From: Lebetimonas natsushimae
Lineage (GTDB): Bacteria; Campylobacterota; Campylobacteria; Campylobacterales; Nautiliaceae
Direction of reading: 5' to 3'
DNA: 64,000 nucleotides
NCBI RefSeq assembly: GCF_002335445.1
Contig: NZ_BDME01000002.1
Span: 248,001 to 312,000, forward strand
Numbering within the stretch: position 1 is the stretch's first letter; every line of letters starts with the position of its first letter. Below are positions 4,748-57,044 of the stretch, piece after piece. The notes under the pieces are model-generated. The model was given only the letters and a program-made list of their open reading frames with translations. It was not told the origin of the DNA and made no database searches. The position numbers and the translations under genes are program-made.

Positions 4748-4800
4748 GTTAATGTAAAATGGATAATGAAAAATGAAGAGTGAAAAACTGATAGATGAAA
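4748..4800 (+). repeat. Degenerate heptamer array between addB and addA
   Basis: Period-7 units of the type taaaatg/gataatg/aaaaatg/aagagtg run from just after the addB stop across the first annotated codons of addA. The array supplies the ATG at 4773, which makes the true addA start uncertain. Confidence 0.7.
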
Positions 4801-7478
4801 AAAGGAATATGATGAAGAAATTATTAAGCGTTGAGGCAAGTGCGGGGAGCGGAAAAACATTCAGGCTTGCAAACAGATACATTTCACTTTTAAATTTGGA
4901 TAATCCTGTAAATATTGTTGCCATTACTTTTACAAATAAAGCCGCAAATGAAATGAAAGAGAGAATTGTTAAATTTTTATTTCTGTTAAAAAAAAATGAT
5001 GAAGAGTTAGACGAAAAAGAAAGGAATGAAAAAAATAATATTATCAATATGGTTTGTAATGAATTAGGAATAAATAAAAAAGAATTATTATATAAAATTG
5101 ATTATTTGATTAAATTATTTTTGACAAACGATAATAATATTCAAACAATCGATTCATTTATTAATAAAATTTTGAGAAAATTTAGTTTTTATGCCGGAAT
5201 CAGGAGTAATTTTGATGTTGGAGATATAAATATAGATAATGTTTTTAACGAGTTTTTGAAAAGTTTAGATACTTATGAATTCAATAAATTGATTGAAATT
5301 GCAAAAAAAGAGGAAAAATTTACATCTCTTTTAGAGTTTTTTGAAAATTTGTATGAAAAAGATAAAGAAATTAAAAAAATAATGGAAAATGTAAAATGGA
5401 GAATAAAAAATGAAAATAATGTAATGGAAGAGATAGAGAAAATTAAAAATAGTTTTATTTTGGCTACGGCCGAATGTAAACAGGTTAATAATTTTTTTAA
5501 AAAAAACATATATGAAATGCTGAAAGTTAAAACAATTCCTTCTTTTTTGGAAAACGGGTCTTTGGAAAAAGTGAGGGGATTTAAAAAATGTTATGAACCC
5601 TGGATGGATAGAGAATTTGAAAAACTTATTGAATATATAAAAATTTATTTTAATTTCAAAGAAAAAATATTTTTTAAAAACCTGTTTTATTTTTATGAAA
5701 AATATAAAAATTTAAAATGGAAAATAAAAAATGAGGAAAATATTTTTTCTTTTAAGGATATTGAACATTTGGTTTATTATCTCTTGCGGGAAAATAAAAT
5801 AGATAAAGATTTTTTATATTTCAGACTCGATTCAAAAATAAATCATATTTTAATGGATGAGTTTCAGGATACTTCCATTACCCAGTGGGAAATATTTGAG
5901 CCTTTGGTGGATGAGATTGCAAGCGGAGTTGGTAGGAGTGAAGAGAGGAGTTTTTTTTATGTGGGTGATGTAAAACAGGCTATTTACAGATTCAGAGGAG
6001 GGAATAAAGAGCTTTTCAGCGAAGTTGCGAACAGGTATAAACCCTTTGGGCTTGAAGTTGAAAAGCTTGATACAAATTTCAGAAGTGCAAAAAATATAGT
6101 AAATTTTGTAAATGAAAAATTTGGTCTTAATGAAAAAGCACATTCTGATAAGAACGGCTATGTAGAAGTGGACGAAATAGAAAAAGAGAATGCATTTGAG
6201 AAGGTGTATGAAAAAATTGAATTTTTAAATAAAAACGGGGTAAAAGATAAAGATATTGCTGTTTTAGTTTTTACAAACGATGATATCTTAAATTTAGCCG
6301 AATTTTTGGAAAACAAAGGTAAAAAAGTGGTAACGGCTAAAAAAGCCGAGGTTAAAACCCAGCCAAGTGCAAAAGCAATTATTTCGCTTATGAAATATCT
6401 GCATAACAAAAAGTTAAAAATTGAAAAATTAAATTTTTTATCATTAATAGGTAAAAAATGGAACGAAGAAGAGTTTGATATAAAAATTCAGCGTCCTGTT
6501 AAAATGATAAAAGAGATAATGGATAAAAATGATTTAGTGGATGAAGCAAGTCTTAAACTATTATATTATTCAAGCAGATATGATACTTTAGAAGATTTTG
6601 TAAATGATATAGAAAATTTCAGTGAGGAACTTCCATATAAAGAGTTTGACGGGATTACTATTATTACCATTCATAAAAGCAAAGGGCTTGAGTTTGATAA
6701 TGTAATAGTGCTTGACAGGCTTACAAAAGAAATGTCGGATAGGGGTAATATTCTGTTTTATTATGAAAATGCCAGATTAAAAGAGATAAAACTTAAGATT
6801 CCAAACAGGGAAATAATAGATCCTGAATACAGGATAATAAAACAGAATGAAGAAAAATTAGTTCTTGAAGATAAAAAAAATGTGGAATATGTGGCTTTTA
6901 CAAGAGCTAAAAATTCTTTGATTATTTTAAAAAGAAATGATAAAAGCATATTTTTAACAGATCTTGAAAAAATCCAAATTGGAGAGGTTATCCCCTCAAG
7001 CGGTAATAAATATAATGTTATTTTAGAAAAAATAAAAGTTAAACTAAGAAATTACGGAAAACAGGAAGTTAAAGTTGATGAGGAAGAATACAAGCCAAAT
7101 GATTATGAAGCCATATTTTTAGGAAATGCACTTCATTATTCTTTTGAATGCGAAGATTTAGAGGCGGTTAGAAATATTTACGGTGATTTTTGTAATATAG
7201 AAGAAGTTAAAAAACTTTATAAAAAATCAAAAAATAAACTGCCAAACGGTAAAAAAGAAGTTCCTTTTATTTATAACAAAAAAGTGGGTAGGATAGATTT
7301 ACTTGTGGAAGAAGATGACGGATTTATCATAATTGATTATAAATCTACAAAACCTAATGATATAAGAGGATATGAAAAACAGGTAAGGCATTATATTGAG
7401 GTTGTGGAAAATTTAACCGCCAAAAAAGCAAAAGGATATCTGTTTTATATAGATATTCAAAAAAAAGAAAAGGTATAA
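4773..7478 (+). CDS. addA: AddA-like UvrD-family helicase-nuclease, RecBCD/AddAB pathway
   Basis: A superfamily 1 helicase with a C-terminal RecB-type nuclease, 901 residues. Motifs in order: Walker A ASAGSGKT (about residue 24), Walker B MDEFQDTS (about 360), LDTNFRSAKN, IHKSKGLEFDNV (about 633), YVAFTRAK (about 707), and the nuclease core GRIDLLVEEDDGFIIIDYKS near 850. With AddB it resects DNA ends. The start is ambiguous: ATG 4773 lies inside a heptamer repeat, while ATG 4809/4812 has AAAGGA just upstream and gives MKKLLSVEASAGSGKT, the more typical N-terminus. Two internal stretches (residues about 202-218 and 313-323) are encoded by the same heptamer repeat and read as near-identical peptides, VKWRIKNENN and LKWKIKNEEN. 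Confidence 0.92.
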   Translation: MKSEKLIDEKRNMMKKLLSVEASAGSGKTFRLANRYISLLNLDNPVNIVAITFTNKAANEMKERIVKFLFLLKKNDEELDEKERNEKNNIINMVCNELGINKKELLYKIDYLIKLFLTNDNNIQTIDSFINKILRKFSFYAGIRSNFDVGDINIDNVFNEFLKSLDTYEFNKLIEIAKKEEKFTSLLEFFENLYEKDKEIKKIMENVKWRIKNENNVMEEIEKIKNSFILATAECKQVNNFFKKNIYEMLKVKTIPSFLENGSLEKVRGFKKCYEPWMDREFEKLIEYIKIYFNFKEKIFFKNLFYFYEKYKNLKWKIKNEENIFSFKDIEHLVYYLLRENKIDKDFLYFRLDSKINHILMDEFQDTSITQWEIFEPLVDEIASGVGRSEERSFFYVGDVKQAIYRFRGGNKELFSEVANRYKPFGLEVEKLDTNFRSAKNIVNFVNEKFGLNEKAHSDKNGYVEVDEIEKENAFEKVYEKIEFLNKNGVKDKDIAVLVFTNDDILNLAEFLENKGKKVVTAKKAEVKTQPSAKAIISLMKYLHNKKLKIEKLNFLSLIGKKWNEEEFDIKIQRPVKMIKEIMDKNDLVDEASLKLLYYSSRYDTLEDFVNDIENFSEELPYKEFDGITIITIHKSKGLEFDNVIVLDRLTKEMSDRGNILFYYENARLKEIKLKIPNREIIDPEYRIIKQNEEKLVLEDKKNVEYVAFTRAKNSLIILKRNDKSIFLTDLEKIQIGEVIPSSGNKYNVILEKIKVKLRNYGKQEVKVDEEEYKPNDYEAIFLGNALHYSFECEDLEAVRNIYGDFCNIEEVKKLYKKSKNKLPNGKKEVPFIYNKKVGRIDLLVEEDDGFIIIDYKSTKPNDIRGYEKQVRHYIEVVENLTAKKAKGYLFYIDIQKKEKV
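5379..5427 (+). repeat. Heptamer array inside addA (first copy)
   Basis: Seven consecutive 7-base units (aataatg, gaaaatg, taaaatg, gagaata, aaaaatg, aaaataa, tgtaatg) lie in frame within addA and encode a lysine/asparagine-rich stretch around residues 202-218. They match the intergenic arrays. Confidence 0.65.
5711..5741 (+). repeat. Heptamer array inside addA (second copy)
   Basis: Units taaaatg, gaaaata, aaaaatg, aggaaaa give a second copy of the peptide seen 330 bp upstream (LKWKIKNEEN here, VKWRIKNENN there). It is shorter and more decayed than the first copy. Confidence 0.55.
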
Positions 7479-7641: not shown

Positions 7642-8653
7642 ACCGAGTGCAAACCTGCATTTAAAAGAAGTTTTGAATAAATTGAAAATGAATAATGGAA
7701 AATGGGAAATTGAGGGAATTTTTGATAAAAATTTAGGAGAGCCCATAATTGACAGTAATGAATTTAATGTAATGGGATTTTTTGATGTGTTGCCTAAAAT
7801 TAAACTTGCAAAAAACACTATTGAAAAATTAACTGAAATGAGCAAAGATGCAGATAAAATTTTACTTATTGATGCACCTTCTTTTAATTTAAGACTTGCC
7901 AGATCAATTAAGAAGCACTGTCCGAATAAAGAAATAATTTATTATATTCTGCCAAAAGTTTGGGCATGGAAAAAAGGAAGAATTAAAGATGTCAATAAAT
8001 ATATAGATAAAAAGGCTTATATTTTTCCTTTTGAAAAAGAGTATTGGAAGGATGGAATATATGTGGGAAATCCCTTACTTGATGAAATAAAAGAATTTAG
8101 AGACAGCGAAGAAAAAGGAAATGTGGCTTTTCTGCCGGGCAGCAGGAAGAGTGAAATCAAATCTCTTATGCCAATTTTCAGGGAACTTGCAAAAAAAATA
8201 AATAAGAGGAAAATATTGGTTGTTCATCCTGTATATAAGGATAGAATCGAAGAAATTTACGGAGATGTCAGAGATTTTGAAATAGAATTTCATACAAAAG
8301 AGGTTTTACTTAAAAGTGATTTTGCCTATATCTGTTCCGGTACCGCAACACTTGAAGCTGCAATTATTGGCATTCCTTTTGTTTTAATGTATAAGGCGAG
8401 AGAAATAGAGTATCTGATAGCCAAAATGCTGGTTAAATTAAATTATGTTGGACTTGCGAATATAATATTTGAGAGGGAAAATTTAGGGGAGTTTCATAAG
8501 GAATATTTGCAAAAATTTGATATAAATTTACTTTTAAATGATTATAAAAAAGCAACTTTAAGCGAATTTAGAGAAAAATCTAAAAAATTAAGAGAAATTT
8601 TGAAATACGGTAGCAGCGAAAATATTGTAAAACTGTTAAATGGGGAAATTTGA
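7616..8653 (+). CDS. lpxB: Lipid-A-disaccharide synthase
   Basis: A GT19 glycosyltransferase that condenses UDP-2,3-diacylglucosamine with lipid X to form the tetra-acyl disaccharide of lipid A at the inner membrane. I chose ATG 7616 (MKILISAIEPSANLHL), which gives 345 residues with the canonical (S/A)xxEPSA(N/G) start; an in-frame ATG at 7601 adds five unlikely residues. Family blocks include YYILPKVWAWKKGRIKD, FLPGSRKSEI and YICSGTATLEAAIIGIPFVLMYKA. A heptamer repeat encodes residues about 22-33 (LKMNNGKWEIEG), where other LpxB proteins are shorter or different. It is followed by greA, a pairing I recall from other Campylobacterota. Confidence 0.93.
   Translation: MKILISAIEPSANLHLKEVLNKLKMNNGKWEIEGIFDKNLGEPIIDSNEFNVMGFFDVLPKIKLAKNTIEKLTEMSKDADKILLIDAPSFNLRLARSIKKHCPNKEIIYYILPKVWAWKKGRIKDVNKYIDKKAYIFPFEKEYWKDGIYVGNPLLDEIKEFRDSEEKGNVAFLPGSRKSEIKSLMPIFRELAKKINKRKILVVHPVYKDRIEEIYGDVRDFEIEFHTKEVLLKSDFAYICSGTATLEAAIIGIPFVLMYKAREIEYLIAKMLVKLNYVGLANIIFERENLGEFHKEYLQKFDINLLLNDYKKATLSEFREKSKKLREILKYGSSENIVKLLNGEI
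7681..7715 (+). repeat. Heptamer array inside lpxB
   Basis: The units ttgaaaa, tgaataa, tggaaaa, tgggaaa, ttgaggg keep period 7 and resemble the intergenic arrays (for example 9163-9195). They code for the segment KLKMNNGKWEIEG. Confidence 0.55.
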
Positions 8654-8679: not shown

Positions 8680-9165
8680 ATGAAAGAACCGATGACCAAA
8701 TATGGATATGAAAAGTTATCAAAGGAACTTGAATACTTAAAAACAGTGGCGAGACCCGAAGTTGCAAAAGAAATTGATGCAGCAAGGGAACTTGGGGATT
8801 TAAAAGAAAATGCAGAATATCATGCGGCAAGGGAAAAACAGGCTCATATTGAAAGAAGAATAGCGGAACTTAGCGATATATTAAGCAGAGCCGTAGTGGT
8901 AGACCCGACTGAACATGCTCATAACAGGGTGGCATTTGGGAGCACTGTGTATTTGATTGATTTGGACAGTGATGAAGAGATTAAATATACAATCGTTGGA
9001 GGACCTGAAGCAAATCCTGAAAAAGGGCTGATTTCTTATAATTCTCCGCTTGCGAAGGCTTTAATCGGAAAAGAAGTCGGAGATGAGGTTGAGGTTAATC
9101 TGCCAGGAGGTGAGAAAGTTTATGAAATAGATAAAATCTGTTATGAAGATATATGTTTTACTTAA
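8680..9165 (+). CDS. greA: Transcription elongation factor GreA
   Basis: 161 residues, the normal GreA length. The N-terminal coiled coil (residues 1-75) begins MTKYGYEKLSKELEYL and carries the tip acidic pair in AARELGDLKENAEYHAA, the signature that reaches into the RNA polymerase secondary channel to promote transcript cleavage. The C-terminal globular half includes YTIVGGPEANPEKGLISYNSPLAKALIGK, the FKBP-like fold conserved in the family. It has its own extended -10 element and is followed by a heptamer repeat and dut. The start ATG 8680 is preceded by AAGGGTG. Four extra residues precede the usual MTKYG start, so ATG 8692 is an alternative. Confidence 0.95.
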   Translation: MKEPMTKYGYEKLSKELEYLKTVARPEVAKEIDAARELGDLKENAEYHAAREKQAHIERRIAELSDILSRAVVVDPTEHAHNRVAFGSTVYLIDLDSDEEIKYTIVGGPEANPEKGLISYNSPLAKALIGKEVGDEVEVNLPGGEKVYEIDKICYEDICFT

Positions 9166-9195
9166 TGAAAAATGGATAATGGAAAATAAGGAATG
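9163..9195 (+). repeat. Heptamer array between greA and dut
   Basis: Units aatgaaa, aatggat, aatggaa, aataagg follow the greA stop at exact period 7 and run into the dut ribosome site (AAGGA). Confidence 0.7.
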
Positions 9196-16954: not shown

Positions 16955-17036
16955 CTTTAATGTAGAATGTATAATGGAGAATGGATAATAAATTAAAGCT
17001 TTTTAATTTTCCATTTTCCATTTTTAATTATCCATT
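16955..17036. repeat. Inverted pair of heptamer arrays between hisS and speA
   Basis: The left arm (16958-17002) has units of the type aatgtat, aatggag, aatggat; the right arm (about 17003-17036) has the reverse-complement units (ttccatt, ttccatt, ttatcca). They meet at attaaagctttttaat, so the RNA from hisS could form a long imperfect hairpin. The right arm abuts the hisS stop codon. Confidence 0.65.
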
Positions 17037-22711: not shown

Positions 22712-24175
22712 ATGAAAGAAATTTATTTGGTTGTAATTTTGGCAGTTTTATTGGCTGTAGTTATTGCGGGGTTTATGTATTATTTAATGAAGAAAACAAA
22801 ATTAGAGAGTGAAAAATTAAAATCAGAATTTGAAGAATTAAATAAAATTTACGAAGAAACTAAAAATAAGTTTCAGTATCATATGGCTCAGGAAGCTGTT
22901 ATGCAAAAAGAAATTGAAAATTTGAATGAAAAAATTACAGATTATGAAGAATTAAAAAAAGAATATGAAAATCTGAATAATGAAAAAAATAATATTTTAA
23001 ATGAAAATTCAGCATTAAAAGAGAAACTTTCATTTTTAGAAAAAATTGAAGAAAAATATCAAAATTTATTAGAAGAAAATCAAAAAGACAAAGCTTTGAT
23101 AAAAGAACTTCAGACAAAGATTGAAGAAGAACAAAAATCTTTTGAAGAAAAACTCTCTATTATTAAAAAAAGTGAGGAAGAGCTAAAAACAGCATTTGAA
23201 AATGTAGCAAATAAAATTTTAGAAGAAAATGCCAAAAAACTATCAAATGAAGGAATTAAAAATTTTGAAAATATTTTAATGCCTCTTAATAATAACCTTA
23301 ATGAATTTAAACAAAAAGTGGATAAATTGTATGAAAGTGAGATTAAAAATATCTCTTCTCTTTTTAACGAACTTAAAAATTTAAAAGAGTTAAATCAGCA
23401 ACTAAGCCAAGAAGCAAATAATCTTACAAAAGCCCTAAAAGGTGATGTTAAAAAAGTAGGAAACTGGGGGGAAGTGGTGCTTGAGAGGATTCTTGAAATG
23501 AGTGGGCTAAGAGAGGGAGAAGAATTTAAAAGAGAAGTTGTTTTTAAGGGAGAAAAAACATACAGGCCAGATGTGGTTGTATATATGCCAAATGATAGGA
23601 TTGTAATAATTGATTCAAAAGTTTCTCTCAATGCTTATGATGAATATGTTTCAGGCAATGAAGATGCCCTTAAAAATCATCTTTTATCAATTAAAAGCCA
23701 TATTGATAAACTGGCAGAGAAAAAATATGAGGCATTGGTCCATAATTCCCTTGATTTTGTTTTAATGTTCGTACCGATTGAAGGTGCTTTGATGCTGGCG
23801 CTTGAAAGTGACCCGGGACTTTTTGAATATGCATTTAAAAAAAGAATTATTCTAACTTCCCCAACTACACTTTTAGCAACTTTAAGAAGTATAGAAGTTT
23901 CATGGAGATATGAAAAACAGGCAAAAAATATTGCTGAAATTGTAAAAATGGCTGAAAACCTTTATGATAAAGTCAGGGGATTTGTGGATGATTTTGAAAA
24001 AGTAGGCGATAATCTTGCTAAAGCTCAAAAATCATACGAAGGGGCTAAGAATAAATTAATTACAGGCAGAGGGAATGTTATTTCTCAAATCAGCAAACTA
24101 AAAGATAAATCAGGCATAAAACCTAAAAAAGAACTTCCAAACGAACTTGTGGAAATTGCAAAGGCTGAAGAATGA
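22712..24175 (+). CDS. rmuC: DNA recombination protein RmuC
   Basis: 487 residues: an N-terminal membrane helix (6-26), a long coiled coil (27-240, Glu/Lys-rich), then the conserved RmuC core with a PD-(D/E)XK-like nuclease signature: NWGEVVLERILEMSGLREGEEF, YRPDVVVYMPNDRIVIIDSKVSLNAY and FVPIEGALMLALESDP. E. coli RmuC limits DNA inversion at short inverted repeats, which is interesting in a genome full of inverted heptamer arrays. The SD AAGGAG precedes ATG 22712. It overlaps the next gene by four bases (ATGA). Confidence 0.93.
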   Translation: MKEIYLVVILAVLLAVVIAGFMYYLMKKTKLESEKLKSEFEELNKIYEETKNKFQYHMAQEAVMQKEIENLNEKITDYEELKKEYENLNNEKNNILNENSALKEKLSFLEKIEEKYQNLLEENQKDKALIKELQTKIEEEQKSFEEKLSIIKKSEEELKTAFENVANKILEENAKKLSNEGIKNFENILMPLNNNLNEFKQKVDKLYESEIKNISSLFNELKNLKELNQQLSQEANNLTKALKGDVKKVGNWGEVVLERILEMSGLREGEEFKREVVFKGEKTYRPDVVVYMPNDRIVIIDSKVSLNAYDEYVSGNEDALKNHLLSIKSHIDKLAEKKYEALVHNSLDFVLMFVPIEGALMLALESDPGLFEYAFKKRIILTSPTTLLATLRSIEVSWRYEKQAKNIAEIVKMAENLYDKVRGFVDDFEKVGDNLAKAQKSYEGAKNKLITGRGNVISQISKLKDKSGIKPKKELPNELVEIAKAEE

Positions 24176-24663
24176 AAAAAAGATTTGCTTATTGGATAGC
24201 TTTGTTTTTAGTTGATATTTTGGTAGCTATTTTTGCACCAAGACTTACTAATCAAAATATTTTTTTAGAAATTTTGGGTGTTTTATTTATAGTTTATGCA
24301 ATAGTTTTAAATTCCATTGCAGGAAGAACACTTAAACTTTATGGACATAGAGAAAAAAAAGATAAATTCTCACCTCCCGATAAATTTGTAAATATCGGTA
24401 TTTTTAGCTGTATGAGACATCCTGGGCAGTTTGGGAATATGTTTTTCCTTGTAGGAATTGCTTTTTTAAGTTCAAAAATAATTGCCATTTTATTTTCAGG
24501 CTGGCTGGTGTTTTTAGGGGCTATGTTTATTTTATTTGTTGAAGAGAGCGAAGCTATTAAAAAATTTGGAAATGATTATTGCAAATATATAACCACTACA
24601 CCTCCATTTAAATTTTCCTTTAAATGTTTAAGAGAGGGGATTGAGGCTATAAAGGATAAATAA
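24172..24663 (+). CDS. Isoprenylcysteine carboxyl methyltransferase/PEMT-like membrane protein
   Basis: 163 residues with four to five membrane helices. It carries the ICMT/PEMT signature: LKLYGHREKKD, then SCMRHPGQFGNMFFLVG (the RHPxxxG/Y SAM-binding motif) and a downstream EEsEAIKKFGNDYCKY, the paired-Glu motif of the family. Members methylate lipids or prenyl cysteines; the bacterial substrate here is unknown. It is translationally coupled to rmuC (ATGA). Eighteen bases later comes the reverse transcriptase gene. Confidence 0.75.
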   Translation: MKKRFAYWIALFLVDILVAIFAPRLTNQNIFLEILGVLFIVYAIVLNSIAGRTLKLYGHREKKDKFSPPDKFVNIGIFSCMRHPGQFGNMFFLVGIAFLSSKIIAILFSGWLVFLGAMFILFVEESEAIKKFGNDYCKYITTTPPFKFSFKCLREGIEAIKDK

Positions 24664-24681: not shown

Positions 24682-26169
24682 ATGAAAAATATATTAGAAT
24701 TATCAGCTAATGAAGTTAAAGAATTTTTTTTAAAATCCGAATCTTATTTTAATGTGGATTTACCTCCATATTTTAATTTTAATAATTTATTAAGTAAAAT
24801 TAATGATGTCTTGTCTAATTCTAATTTATCTGATTTTTTTAAAGAAAAACCTTGGAATTATGATGATATAAATTATCATTTATTCAGTAATAAAGATGGA
24901 AAATATTCTTGGAGACCCTTTCAAATTGTTAATCCAGCTATATATGTAGAGATGGTAAATATAATAGCAGACAATGATAATTGGGAATATATTAAAAGTA
25001 AATTTCAAGATTTTCAAAGTCCAATAAATATAAAATGTATGAGTATACCTGTACAAAGTACATCCAAGAAAAAAGATAAAGCCGTACAGATATTAGCATG
25101 GTGGAAAAAAATTGAACAAGAATCTTTGAAATCAGCTTTAAAATATAACTATGTAATTCATACTGATATTACTAATTGTTATGGCAATATATATACTCAT
25201 ACTATTTCATGGGCATTACATGGAAAAGAAATAGCAAAAATTGAGCGTGGAAATAAAAATTTATTGGGGAATAAGTTAGATAAAAATTTTCAAAATATGA
25301 ATTATGGGCAAACTAATGGTATTCCTCAAGGAAATATTTTATCGGATTTTATAGCAGAAATAATTTTGGGATATACTGATTTAAAATTGTATGAAGCTAT
25401 AGAAAAAAATAATATTAAAGATTATGAAATTTTGCGATACAGAGATGATTATAGAATTTTCACAAAGGAATTAAGTACAGGAGAAAAAATTTTAAAATTA
25501 TTATCAGAGATACTTCTTGAATTTAATTTTAAATTAAATGATAAAAAAACTTTTGTTGAAAATGATTTAATTCTTTCATCTTTAAAAAAAGATAAATTAC
25601 AATTTATTGAATTAAATATATTTTCATTATCAATTCAGGATGAGTTATTAATGTTATATAAATTTTCTATAGATTATCCGAATAGTGGTACTTTAGCAAA
25701 ATGGTTAGAGATGATATATGAAAAATTAGTTAATGATGAATATAATCTAAAAAAATCAGATAAGATTGTATTAATTTCAATTTTAGTAGAAATTATGTAT
25801 AAAAATCCTAAAGTTATTTCTGCTTGTATTGCTATTATAAGTATTTTTGTTAAAGATTTATCTGAGAATAAACAAAAAGAAATTTTTGAAAATATTATAA
25901 ATAAATTTTCTACTATTCCTAATATAGGTTTATTAGAAATTTGGTTACAAAGATTAATTGTTCCCTTTGGAGTTAATGATTTATACAATAAATTTAATGA
26001 TAAATTATGTAAAAAAGTAGAAAATCCAGAATATGATATTTGGAATATAGAATGGTTATCTGGAAAGTTAAAAAATATAATAAAAACAATTGATATTATT
26101 GAAAGAAATAAATTAAGTAATTTAAAGAAAGTTATTGAAGAAAAAGAATTTAATATGTTTTTTTATTAA
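24682..26169 (+). CDS. Stand-alone reverse transcriptase with helical C-terminal extension (defence-type RT candidate)
   Basis: 495 residues. RT palm motifs are intact: HTDITNCYGNIYTHTISWAL (motif A, catalytic Asp162), NYGQTNGIPQGNILSDF (207-223), RYRDDYRIF (252-260, the YxDD box) and FNFKLNDKKTFV (281-292). Residues about 293-495 are predicted all-helical with no maturase or endonuclease domain, like the alpha-repeat tails of Abi and 'unknown group' (UG/DRT) RTs. Retron msr/msd DNA and group II intron domains are absent, and no partner gene is present: the next gene converges two bases after the stop. The SD AAAGGAAAAG precedes the ATG. Base composition is lower in GC than the flanks (9 of 60 at 25741-25800 against 20 of 60 at 24001-24060), suggesting transfer. 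Phage defence is inference. Confidence 0.85.
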   Translation: MKNILELSANEVKEFFLKSESYFNVDLPPYFNFNNLLSKINDVLSNSNLSDFFKEKPWNYDDINYHLFSNKDGKYSWRPFQIVNPAIYVEMVNIIADNDNWEYIKSKFQDFQSPINIKCMSIPVQSTSKKKDKAVQILAWWKKIEQESLKSALKYNYVIHTDITNCYGNIYTHTISWALHGKEIAKIERGNKNLLGNKLDKNFQNMNYGQTNGIPQGNILSDFIAEIILGYTDLKLYEAIEKNNIKDYEILRYRDDYRIFTKELSTGEKILKLLSEILLEFNFKLNDKKTFVENDLILSSLKKDKLQFIELNIFSLSIQDELLMLYKFSIDYPNSGTLAKWLEMIYEKLVNDEYNLKKSDKIVLISILVEIMYKNPKVISACIAIISIFVKDLSENKQKEIFENIINKFSTIPNIGLLEIWLQRLIVPFGVNDLYNKFNDKLCKKVENPEYDIWNIEWLSGKLKNIIKTIDIIERNKLSNLKKVIEEKEFNMFFY

Positions 26170-26171
26170 TT

Positions 26172-27266
26172 TTAAAAATAAATTCTCTCTAAAATATTAA
26201 TTAATCTCTCTCTTTCTTTTTGAATATTCTCGTTACAATTGTTAAGCTGCAAAAGTAAATTTTTAGCTTTTTGGTAATTTTTAATTTTCATATACATTAC
26301 TGCTAAATCATATTTTATTATGCAGCTGTTTGGATATTTATTTGCTAATTGTTGCATTTCATCGATTAAATTTTTTGAATTTTGAGGATTTTTTGTTATT
26401 TCATTAATTATATTTTCAAATCTTTTTTTGTCTTTAAAATCAGCTTTTACATCCAAATCATCAAAAAGTTTTGCATTAAATGTAATATTATGAGGCGCTA
26501 TATCTTCTATAAATTCAGAAGCAATAAGATATGCAAGTTCATCTGCTTTTTGGTTAAAGTTTAAATAAGCTTTATATTTTTTTGGGTCATTTGGATAAAT
26601 TTCTTTTATATCTGCGCAGGGGTCATCAATAGAGAGTTTTTTATAAGTTTTTGAAAAAAGTAGATTGTTATTTTTATCTTTTATATTTAGTTTGGCTTTT
26701 AGTGAAATTTCTTTTTTTTCACATGTAATAGTTGCAAATTCCGGTTTACAAGATATGTTTTTTTTATAAATCTGATTGTTTATTAAAATGTAATTCCCAT
26801 TTTGATAACTCTTTTTTTGAAGTAAATTAAAATCTTTTAAAGAATAATGGATGGGATTTGAAAAATTACAAAAGAACATTCCTCCTACTTCTTTACATGG
26901 ATAAAGAGTTACCATACATCTTGGTTTTTTATAAATAATTTTTGCTTTTTTGTGATAAAAAGTGTCTTTTTTATTTATTTTTTCAGTTCCACTTAAGACA
27001 GATTGATAATTTTTGGGATTTATGTGAAAATAATTTGGAATAATATTATTTACTTCTTTCATTTTTTGAATAATTTTTTCTTTTAGATTAGCTTTATCAT
27101 TTTGAATATTGTCTATTTTTATGAATTTTATTTTTTCATTTTGTATTTCTTTTGGTTTTTCTACAGTATAAATATTTATTTCCTTATTACTACAGCCTGT
27201 AAAAAATATTATAAAAAATAAAATAATTACTAATTTTCCATTTTCCATTATCCATTTTCTATTCAT
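26172..27266 (-). CDS. Predicted lipoprotein with C-terminal TPR-like segment
   Basis: 364 residues. The signal peptide ends in the lipobox FFTGC (about residue 25), so it is a lipoprotein. The N-terminus (MNRKWIMENGKLV) is encoded by a heptamer array. Middle part: six or more cysteines in short pairs (CMVTLYPC, FFCNF, ISCKPEFATITC), which could form periplasmic disulfides. The C-terminal ~70 residues (YPNSCIIKYDLAVMYMKIKNYQKAKNLLL) look like one tetratricopeptide-type repeat. I do not recognise the family. The start overlaps the polA stop by four bases, so it is read from the polA transcript. Confidence 0.65.
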   Translation of the reverse strand: MNRKWIMENGKLVIILFFIIFFTGCSNKEINIYTVEKPKEIQNEKIKFIKIDNIQNDKANLKEKIIQKMKEVNNIIPNYFHINPKNYQSVLSGTEKINKKDTFYHKKAKIIYKKPRCMVTLYPCKEVGGMFFCNFSNPIHYSLKDFNLLQKKSYQNGNYILINNQIYKKNISCKPEFATITCEKKEISLKAKLNIKDKNNNLLFSKTYKKLSIDDPCADIKEIYPNDPKKYKAYLNFNQKADELAYLIASEFIEDIAPHNITFNAKLFDDLDVKADFKDKKRFENIINEITKNPQNSKNLIDEMQQLANKYPNSCIIKYDLAVMYMKIKNYQKAKNLLLQLNNCNENIQKERERLINILERIYF

Positions 27267-38784: not shown

Positions 38785-38835
38785 TCCTGTCCTTTTAAAT
38801 TTCAATTTTTCATTTTCCATTTTCAATTTTCCATT
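38785..38835 (-). repeat. Heptamer array between the RND pump and its adaptor gene
   Basis: Read on the minus strand: aatggaa, aattgaa, aatggaa, aatgaaa, aattgaa. It covers the gap between the two genes and the last codons of the adaptor gene, whose terminal residues (IMEN) come from it. Confidence 0.6.
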
Positions 38836-44224: not shown

Positions 44225-44290
44225 TTTTAATGTATAATGGAAAATGGATAATGTAAAATTAAAAGTTAAAAGTGAAAAATTAAATAGGTG
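44225..44290 (+). repeat. Long heptamer array between moaA and the sirtuin gene
   Basis: The clearest array: aatgtat, aatggaa, aatggat, aatgtaa, aattaaa, agttaaa, agtgaaa, aattaaa, taggtga. It starts just after the moaA stop and shows the drift from AATGGAA-type to AATTAAA-type units also seen in other copies. Confidence 0.75.
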
Positions 44291-54884: not shown

Positions 54885-57044
54885 TTGCGTAAAAGCTTTT
54901 ATATTTTTCTTTTTGCTTTGTCAATTTATTTTTTTATTTCCACTATATTGCCTTCATTTTCCTATGTAGGTAGATTCGGGACGTTTTTGGGAAAAACAAA
55001 TTTATTATTATTTGGATATTTAGGTTATGTTTTTCCGTTTTTATTAATGTGTTTGATTTATTTTTTTTACAAAGAAAAATTTGATTTTGATTTTTCTGTT
55101 AAAATATTGGGCGGTGTTTTTGCTTTTTTTGCATTTCTTCTGATACAATATGAAATCTTTCACGAAGGTGTTATTGCAAAACTTTTTGCGGAGTTTTTAA
55201 AAAAATATATAGGTGTTTTAGGTGTTTGGATTTTTATATTGCTTTTGTTAACATGGTCATGTTTTTTAATTTTTGAAGAAAAATTGTTCAATTTGTTTGG
55301 TAAGACTAAAAATTATAATGAAATTGATAACACTGAAAATTCAAATAAAAAAAATGATGAAATAAAAACAGAAAACGGTTTACTGGATGGAGAGATAAAT
55401 GAAAATAAAGAAAATATAATTGAAACAGATAAAAATAAAGAAAGTTATAATCACCGAGATTTTAATGAAGAAAATTATAATAATGAAAATGAAAACAGTG
55501 AAAAAAACGGTAATAAAAAAAATGAAAACTTAAAAATATTTACAAAAAAAGATAAAAATATTGATAATTCAAATGAACATAATATAGAAAAAGTTGAAGT
55601 TTTAGAAGATACAAAAAAACTTCTCTCACAGATTGAAACCGGAAAAAGAGATTTACCAAAAAACTGGAAATTTCCTCCTATTGAATTTTTAACTAAACCT
55701 AAAAATGAGAAAAAAATAGTGAATGAGGCTGAAATTGATAAAAAAATTAAAATATTGCTTGAAAAATTAAAACAGTTTAAAATTGAGGGAGATGTTGTAA
55801 GATATTATGTGGGTCCCGTTGTCACCACTTTTGAATTTAAACCTCTTCCGCATATAAAGGTAAGTAAAATTTTATCGCTTCAAGATGATTTGGCAATGGC
55901 GCTGAAAGCCCAGTCGATCAGGATTCAGGCTCCAATTCCCGGAAAAGATGTCGTTGGAATTGAAATACCGAATGAAAAAATGCAGACAATATATTTAAGA
56001 GAAATTTTAGAAAGTGATATTTTTAAAAAGGCCAAATCCCCTTTAACCATTGCTATTGGTAAAGATATCGTCGGAGCCCCCTTTGTCACTGATTTAAAAA
56101 AACTTCCTCATTTATTAATTGCCGGGACCACCGGAAGTGGTAAAAGTGTCGGTATAAATGCAATGATTCTTTCATTATTGTATAGAAATTCTCCGGATCA
56201 GCTTAAATTTGTAATGATAGATCCAAAAATGCTTGAATTTTCTATTTACAATGATATTCCACATTTACTCACTCCTGTAATTACTGAACCCAAAAAAGCT
56301 ATTGTCGCTCTTAATGCAATGGTAAAAGAGATGGAGAGACGCTACAAACTAATGGCAAAAATGAGGGTTAAGAATATAGAAGGGTATAATCAAAAAGTTG
56401 ATGAAAAATTACCTTATATTGTTATAATAATTGATGAATTGGCCGATTTAATGATGACAAGCGGTAAAGATGTTGAATATTCAATTGCAAGACTTGCACA
56501 AATGGCAAGGGCAAGCGGTATTCATTTAATAGTGGCAACACAAAGGCCGAGTGTGGATGTGGTTACAGGTCTTATTAAAGCTAATCTTCCAAGTAGGATT
56601 AGTTTTAAAGTGGGTCAAAAAATTGACAGCAAAGTTATTTTAGATCAATTCGGTGCAGAAAGTCTTTTGGGACGGGGGGATATGCTTTTTACACCTCCCG
56701 GAATTACCGGACTTATAAGACTTCATGCACCATATACCTCTGAAGAGGAAATAGAAAAAGTGGTTGAATTTTTAAAAAAAGAAAGATCCCCTTCTTATGA
56801 TTTAATTTTTTTAAATACTCTTGATGAGGAAACTCAAAATTTAGAAAAAATTGATGAAGATTTGGATGAATTGTTTGAAGAAGCTAAAAAAATTATTTTG
56901 ACTGAAAAAAGAACAAGTATCAGTTATCTTCAAAGAAGGTTAAATATTGGATATAATAGAGCAGCCAATATTATTGAACAGATGGAAAGAATGGGGATTC
57001 TTTCAAAACCTAACTCAAAAGGTCAAAGAGAAATATTAATGTAA
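54885..57044 (+). CDS. ftsK: FtsK/SpoIIIE family DNA translocase
   Basis: 719 residues from TTG 54885, with AAAGG upstream. Four membrane helices (1-135), a low-complexity Asn/Glu/Lys linker (140-240), then the motor: Walker A HLLIAGTTGSGKSVGINAM (about 407), Walker B YIVIIIDELADLMM, ATQRPSVDVVTGLIKAN. C-terminal gamma winged-helix: SISYLQRRLNIGYNRAANIIEQMERMGIL. It moves chromosome ends at the septum for dimer resolution. It starts 24 bases after flgL. The linker is shorter than in E. coli FtsK, as in the SpoIIIE type. Confidence 0.96.
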   Translation: MRKSFYIFLFALSIYFFISTILPSFSYVGRFGTFLGKTNLLLFGYLGYVFPFLLMCLIYFFYKEKFDFDFSVKILGGVFAFFAFLLIQYEIFHEGVIAKLFAEFLKKYIGVLGVWIFILLLLTWSCFLIFEEKLFNLFGKTKNYNEIDNTENSNKKNDEIKTENGLLDGEINENKENIIETDKNKESYNHRDFNEENYNNENENSEKNGNKKNENLKIFTKKDKNIDNSNEHNIEKVEVLEDTKKLLSQIETGKRDLPKNWKFPPIEFLTKPKNEKKIVNEAEIDKKIKILLEKLKQFKIEGDVVRYYVGPVVTTFEFKPLPHIKVSKILSLQDDLAMALKAQSIRIQAPIPGKDVVGIEIPNEKMQTIYLREILESDIFKKAKSPLTIAIGKDIVGAPFVTDLKKLPHLLIAGTTGSGKSVGINAMILSLLYRNSPDQLKFVMIDPKMLEFSIYNDIPHLLTPVITEPKKAIVALNAMVKEMERRYKLMAKMRVKNIEGYNQKVDEKLPYIVIIIDELADLMMTSGKDVEYSIARLAQMARASGIHLIVATQRPSVDVVTGLIKANLPSRISFKVGQKIDSKVILDQFGAESLLGRGDMLFTPPGITGLIRLHAPYTSEEEIEKVVEFLKKERSPSYDLIFLNTLDEETQNLEKIDEDLDELFEEAKKIILTEKRTSISYLQRRLNIGYNRAANIIEQMERMGILSKPNSKGQREILM

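Follow-up and report, generated by a model that had tools for sequence, protein, structure and literature searches.

The open reading frame at 24682-26169 (+) of the window, the whole 64,000-nucleotide stretch of Lebetimonas natsushimae DNA analysed here, encodes a reverse transcriptase (RT) that is a full-length member of AbiP2, a named anti-phage family, and is a known kind of gene. We consider it, with a probability of about 0.93, to be a single-gene abortive-infection polymerase that arrived by horizontal transfer and came to lie between two resident genes in convergent orientation. The features on which this reading is built are as follows:

24172..24663 (+), left flank: resident PEMT-type methyltransferase (Pfam PF04191), whose copy at the empty site of the same-genus genome G001 is 79% identical
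24682..26169 (+), abiP2 gene, 495 aa, intact (PADLOC AbiP2 profile; phmmer and fold matches to 7R08)
24769..24771 (+), codon of Tyr30 (in LPPYFNF), counterpart of the Abi-P2 priming Tyr61 by alignment to P2-EC30 ORF570; invariant in 116/116 sequences
25165..25167 (+), codon of Asp162, the motif A catalytic aspartate; invariant in 116/116
25435..25449 (+), codons of RYRDD (residues 252-256), the motif C box with catalytic D255 and D256; R254, D255 and D256 invariant in 116/116
25588..26166 (+), C-terminal helical domain (approximately residues 303-495), which stands in place of the RT thumb in Abi polymerases (AlphaFold2 model, 7R08 fold match)
26172..27266 (-), right flank: resident putative lipoprotein, without a Pfam family, with a 73% identical copy at the G001 empty site

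The 495-aa frame starts with ATG, preceded by an AAAGGA-like ribosome site, contains no internal stop codon and accounts for the genome's single RVT_1 match. It is separated by 18 bp from the methyltransferase stop (24663) and by 2 bp from the stop of the convergent lipoprotein gene (26172), exactly as measured in the first-pass annotation, which had also correctly reported intact RT motifs, with D162 inside HTDITNCYGNIYTHTISWALHGK and RYRDDYRIF at residues 252-260. The neighbourhood, described there as housekeeping, indeed comprises RmuC, the methyltransferase and PolA; we recognised no defence gene beside the RT, nor any partner gene, in line with the original description. The low GC content that had been pointed out is real with respect to the 64-kb window (21.0% versus 29.7%), but the adjoining lipoprotein gene is equally low (21.8%), so that this composition is not peculiar to the RT gene and was rejected as proof of foreign origin.

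Assignment to the family is based on a full-length profile match clearly above those of the sister UG/Abi profiles: the PADLOC AbiP2 model (PDLC03744) scored 630 bits over residues 1-494, compared with 202 bits for the runner-up RT_UG14 and 100 bits for AbiK. Among solved chains, the closest in sequence is that of Abi-P2 (7R08; phmmer E = 1.2e-77, residues 1-483). Among the NCBIfam models, none passes its cut-off, including Drt4 (148 versus 450 bits) and Drt3b (128.5 versus 350 bits), which places the protein outside DRT4 and Drt3b. The AlphaFold2 model, for which 65 relatives were used (mean pLDDT 94.3), shows the same affiliation, its six best PDB matches being the six chains of 7R08, all aligned over the whole chain (TM 0.83-0.87); the best of these has a TM of 0.87/0.89 and an rmsd of 2.7 Å, helical tail included. 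The predicted fold thus consists of RT-like palm and fingers, no thumb and an alpha-helical C-terminal domain, and the full-chain match identifies the tail, already noted as all-helical in the first-pass annotation (helices from approximately residue 303 to 490 in the model), as the Abi helical domain. AbiK, DRT4, DRT6 and UG15, defence polymerases of the broad Abi/UG group, likewise combine RT-like and helical domains but differ by much lower sequence and fold scores (TM 0.67 or less for their structures). The proposal of an acquired, single-gene, defence-type RT of the Abi/UG class is therefore supported by profile, fold and an empty site (see below), whereas its description as undescribed or rare is not: AbiP2 is a named family with a solved structure and reported activity against phage T5.

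Abi-P2 proteins are encoded by P2-like prophages of E. coli, with ORF570 of P2-EC30 as one example, and the protein described here shares with them homology over the full length, the fold including the helical tail, the catalytic and priming residues and the single-gene organisation. Its identity to the E. coli proteins that have been tested is, however, only ~32-35%; it does not have the 31-residue N-terminal extension annotated for ORF570, and there is no prophage context around its gene. The 7R08 alignment is offset by 31 residues, indicating that 7R08 and ORF570 are numbered in the same way. Residues 46 and 61 of ORF570 (in LSYFL and LPAYINF) align with Phe15 and Tyr30, respectively. In an alignment of 116 sequences (the RT protein and 115 relatives), Y30, D162, R254, D255, D256, Y257, K289, W421 and Q423 are invariant, so that the catalytic aspartates of motifs A and C and the equivalent of the priming tyrosine are all in place, whereas position 15, the counterpart of the dispensable Tyr46, varies among F, Y, H and L. 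DNA synthesis by Abi-P2 is template-independent and is abolished by Y61F but not by Y46F (Figiel et al. 2022, PMC9508834). At the sequence level, the conserved tyrosine directly supports protein priming by this enzyme, the chemistry itself being extrapolated from Abi-P2. The choice between protein-primed and ncRNA-templated synthesis, left open in the first-pass annotation, receives a strong answer by homology with Abi-P2, according to which the enzyme would be protein-primed and template-independent.

By analogy with this solved relative, the protein would form trimers or hexamers that prime synthesis from the Tyr30 hydroxyl and build single-stranded DNA with no template, the product running between the RT-like lobe and the helical lobe. 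This activity would become consequential upon phage infection and stop phage multiplication. For E. coli Abi-P2, restriction of phage T5 has been reported (PMC11077055).

The position of the gene is an acquired one. In the same-genus genome G001, the methyltransferase and lipoprotein genes are convergent, their stop ends overlap by ~8 bp and there is no RT, and in a genome of another genus (G006) the same pair lies ~340 bp apart, again with no RT between them. Comparison of the locus among relatives, as proposed at the outset, thus revealed an empty site rather than the conserved synteny that would have argued against acquisition. The AbiP2 gene of a third genome (G002, another genus of the same family; L008:6719-8209) is 47% identical over the full length and also sits between housekeeping genes, but at a different locus, between hemD-like and acpS-like genes (names from reading of the ORFs), so that it either was inserted independently or has moved. 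A single insertion of one gene in the lineage of the RT-bearing genome would be the simplest history. Inspection of the insertion site by eye for a target-site duplication revealed only AT-rich AAATAAA-like microhomology, which is meaningless at such a GC content. In the family tree, a long branch of 0.99 changes per site leads to the protein, whose neighbours are three sequences of the same order and four of Bacteroidota; owing to this weak placement (support of 89 at the nearest fork), we claim no donor.

Searching 397 sampled genomes of the phylum with the AbiP2 model (threshold E 1e-30) yielded 14 genomes with a match, of which five (G000, G002, G120, G144 and G077) carry a strong full-length AbiP2. 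In a sixth (G366:C1:235872-237066; L027, L036) the gene is broken by several stop codons, showing that AbiP2 genes decay in this phylum. The remaining genomes contain only partial profile matches (107-119 bits), probably to other UG/Abi RTs.

An intact gene could nevertheless be silent cargo, unexpressed or unprotective in its present host. Consistent with this reading, the gene stands alone without a recognisable promoter, and a related one in the same phylum, that of G366, is broken. Scans for promoters and terminators around the gene gave matches no better than in shuffled sequences, and the gene may be expressed by read-through from the preceding rmuC-methyltransferase genes. Against it, the reading frame is full-length and has kept all checked family-invariant residues despite the long branch, which argues for selection over the history of the protein. 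We regard silent cargo as unlikely.

Relatives proved numerous when the genome and viral contigs were queried with an alignment, unlike scans of the same contigs with a single-sequence pattern, which found none. The 383 candidate genome loci (80 kept) are spread across many phyla, further contradicting the notion of a rare protein, and members occur on P2-like E. coli phages, on plasmids of Enterococcus, Pediococcus and others, and in viral contigs. After removal of near-identical RTs, the commonest neighbour cluster (30 loci) contains type I restriction subunits, and relatives are often located in type I restriction-modification operons of the hsdM-hsdS-RT-hsdR type; Pfam analysis of nine neighbours identified HsdR, HsdS or HsdM in eight cases and, beside a Neisseria copy, Cas4 in the ninth. 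Such neighbours support a defence role of the AbiP2 family. AbiP2-like RTs have also been noted near type I-C CRISPR loci by the authors of myRT (PMC8934634).

Within the type I restriction operons of unrelated phyla (L106, L113, L124, L126), the AbiP2 gene lies between hsdS and hsdR wherever both were checked; our literature search found no paper describing this arrangement. On an Enterococcus faecium plasmid (L041:2067-4473), an adjoining IS30 transposase gene overlaps the AbiP2 gene and marks the point at which the latter has lost its N-terminus, priming tyrosine included, a truncation present on many plasmids.

Away from the usual prophage, plasmid or restriction operon, a divergent AbiP2 might serve the host besides or instead of defence, for example by modifying DNA ends under genome stress in a low-GC host, behind the rmuC-methyltransferase genes, although we judge such a role highly improbable.

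Equally doubtful is an ncRNA-templated defence RT resembling DRT2, DRT9 or DRT10, with its template RNA overlapping coding DNA. Some defence RTs are described as requiring an adjacent ncRNA (PMC12039810, PMC12489045). Yet the window contains no Rfam match at or above the gathering score, and the flanks of 18 and 2 bp leave little space, as remarked in the first-pass annotation, which had also seen no retron msr/msd; none is found beside the RT, Rfam covering described retron RNAs only. Moreover, in 31 of 100 relatives an ORF on the same strand ends no more than 50 bp before the RT, so that in about a third of them there is no room for a conserved upstream RNA. By family and fold the protein belongs with the untemplated polymerases AbiK and Abi-P2, whereas structures of DRT9 and DRT2 match the predicted model with a TM of 0.37 or less, and the known Abi-P2 mechanism needs neither an ncRNA nor a partner gene. 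Finally, derivation from a group II intron, retron or DGR reverse transcriptase, to which the shared RVT_1 domain and a weak match to the group II maturase model TIGR04416 might point, can be dismissed given that this match reaches 57.6 bits against a cut-off of 300, that the Rfam scan contains no intron or retron RNA and that the structural matches are partial (query-normalised TM 0.40 or less); no assignment to group II intron or retron RTs, which the first-pass annotation had named as refuting its proposal, could be made.

Two further observations concern the window at large. A heptad, AATGGAN, forms short arrays of 2-5 units, most of them where genes adjoin and close to start codons (4751-4770, 5381-5400, 7687-7706, 9164-9183, 16966-17022, 27237-27263, 38809-38835, 44229-44255 and others), and with its period of 7 bp ATG falls successively into each of the three reading frames. 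AATGGANAATGGA has 25 matches in the window versus 1.3 expected when up to one mismatch is allowed, and exact matches number 101 in the genome versus 1 for the reversed control. Many members of the same family show this enrichment (0-103 per genome), unlike other families of the order (0-3), and a literature search for AATGGAN heptad arrays found no paper. In addition, the C-terminal two thirds of a 719-aa protein (54885-57041, +) match the PADLOC models SspH (251 bits) and mad8 (141 bits), probably reflecting helicase-domain resemblance rather than a defence system.

The AbiP2 gene of L. natsushimae adds a lineage in which such genes are sparse, with about half a dozen of AbiP2 type in 397 genomes, to the range of a characterised abortive-infection polymerase, and the comparison with G001 provides a clean empty-site case of single-gene movement. 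For the family as a whole, the 116-sequence alignment independently supports, on evolutionary grounds, Tyr61 rather than Tyr46 as the residue used for priming.
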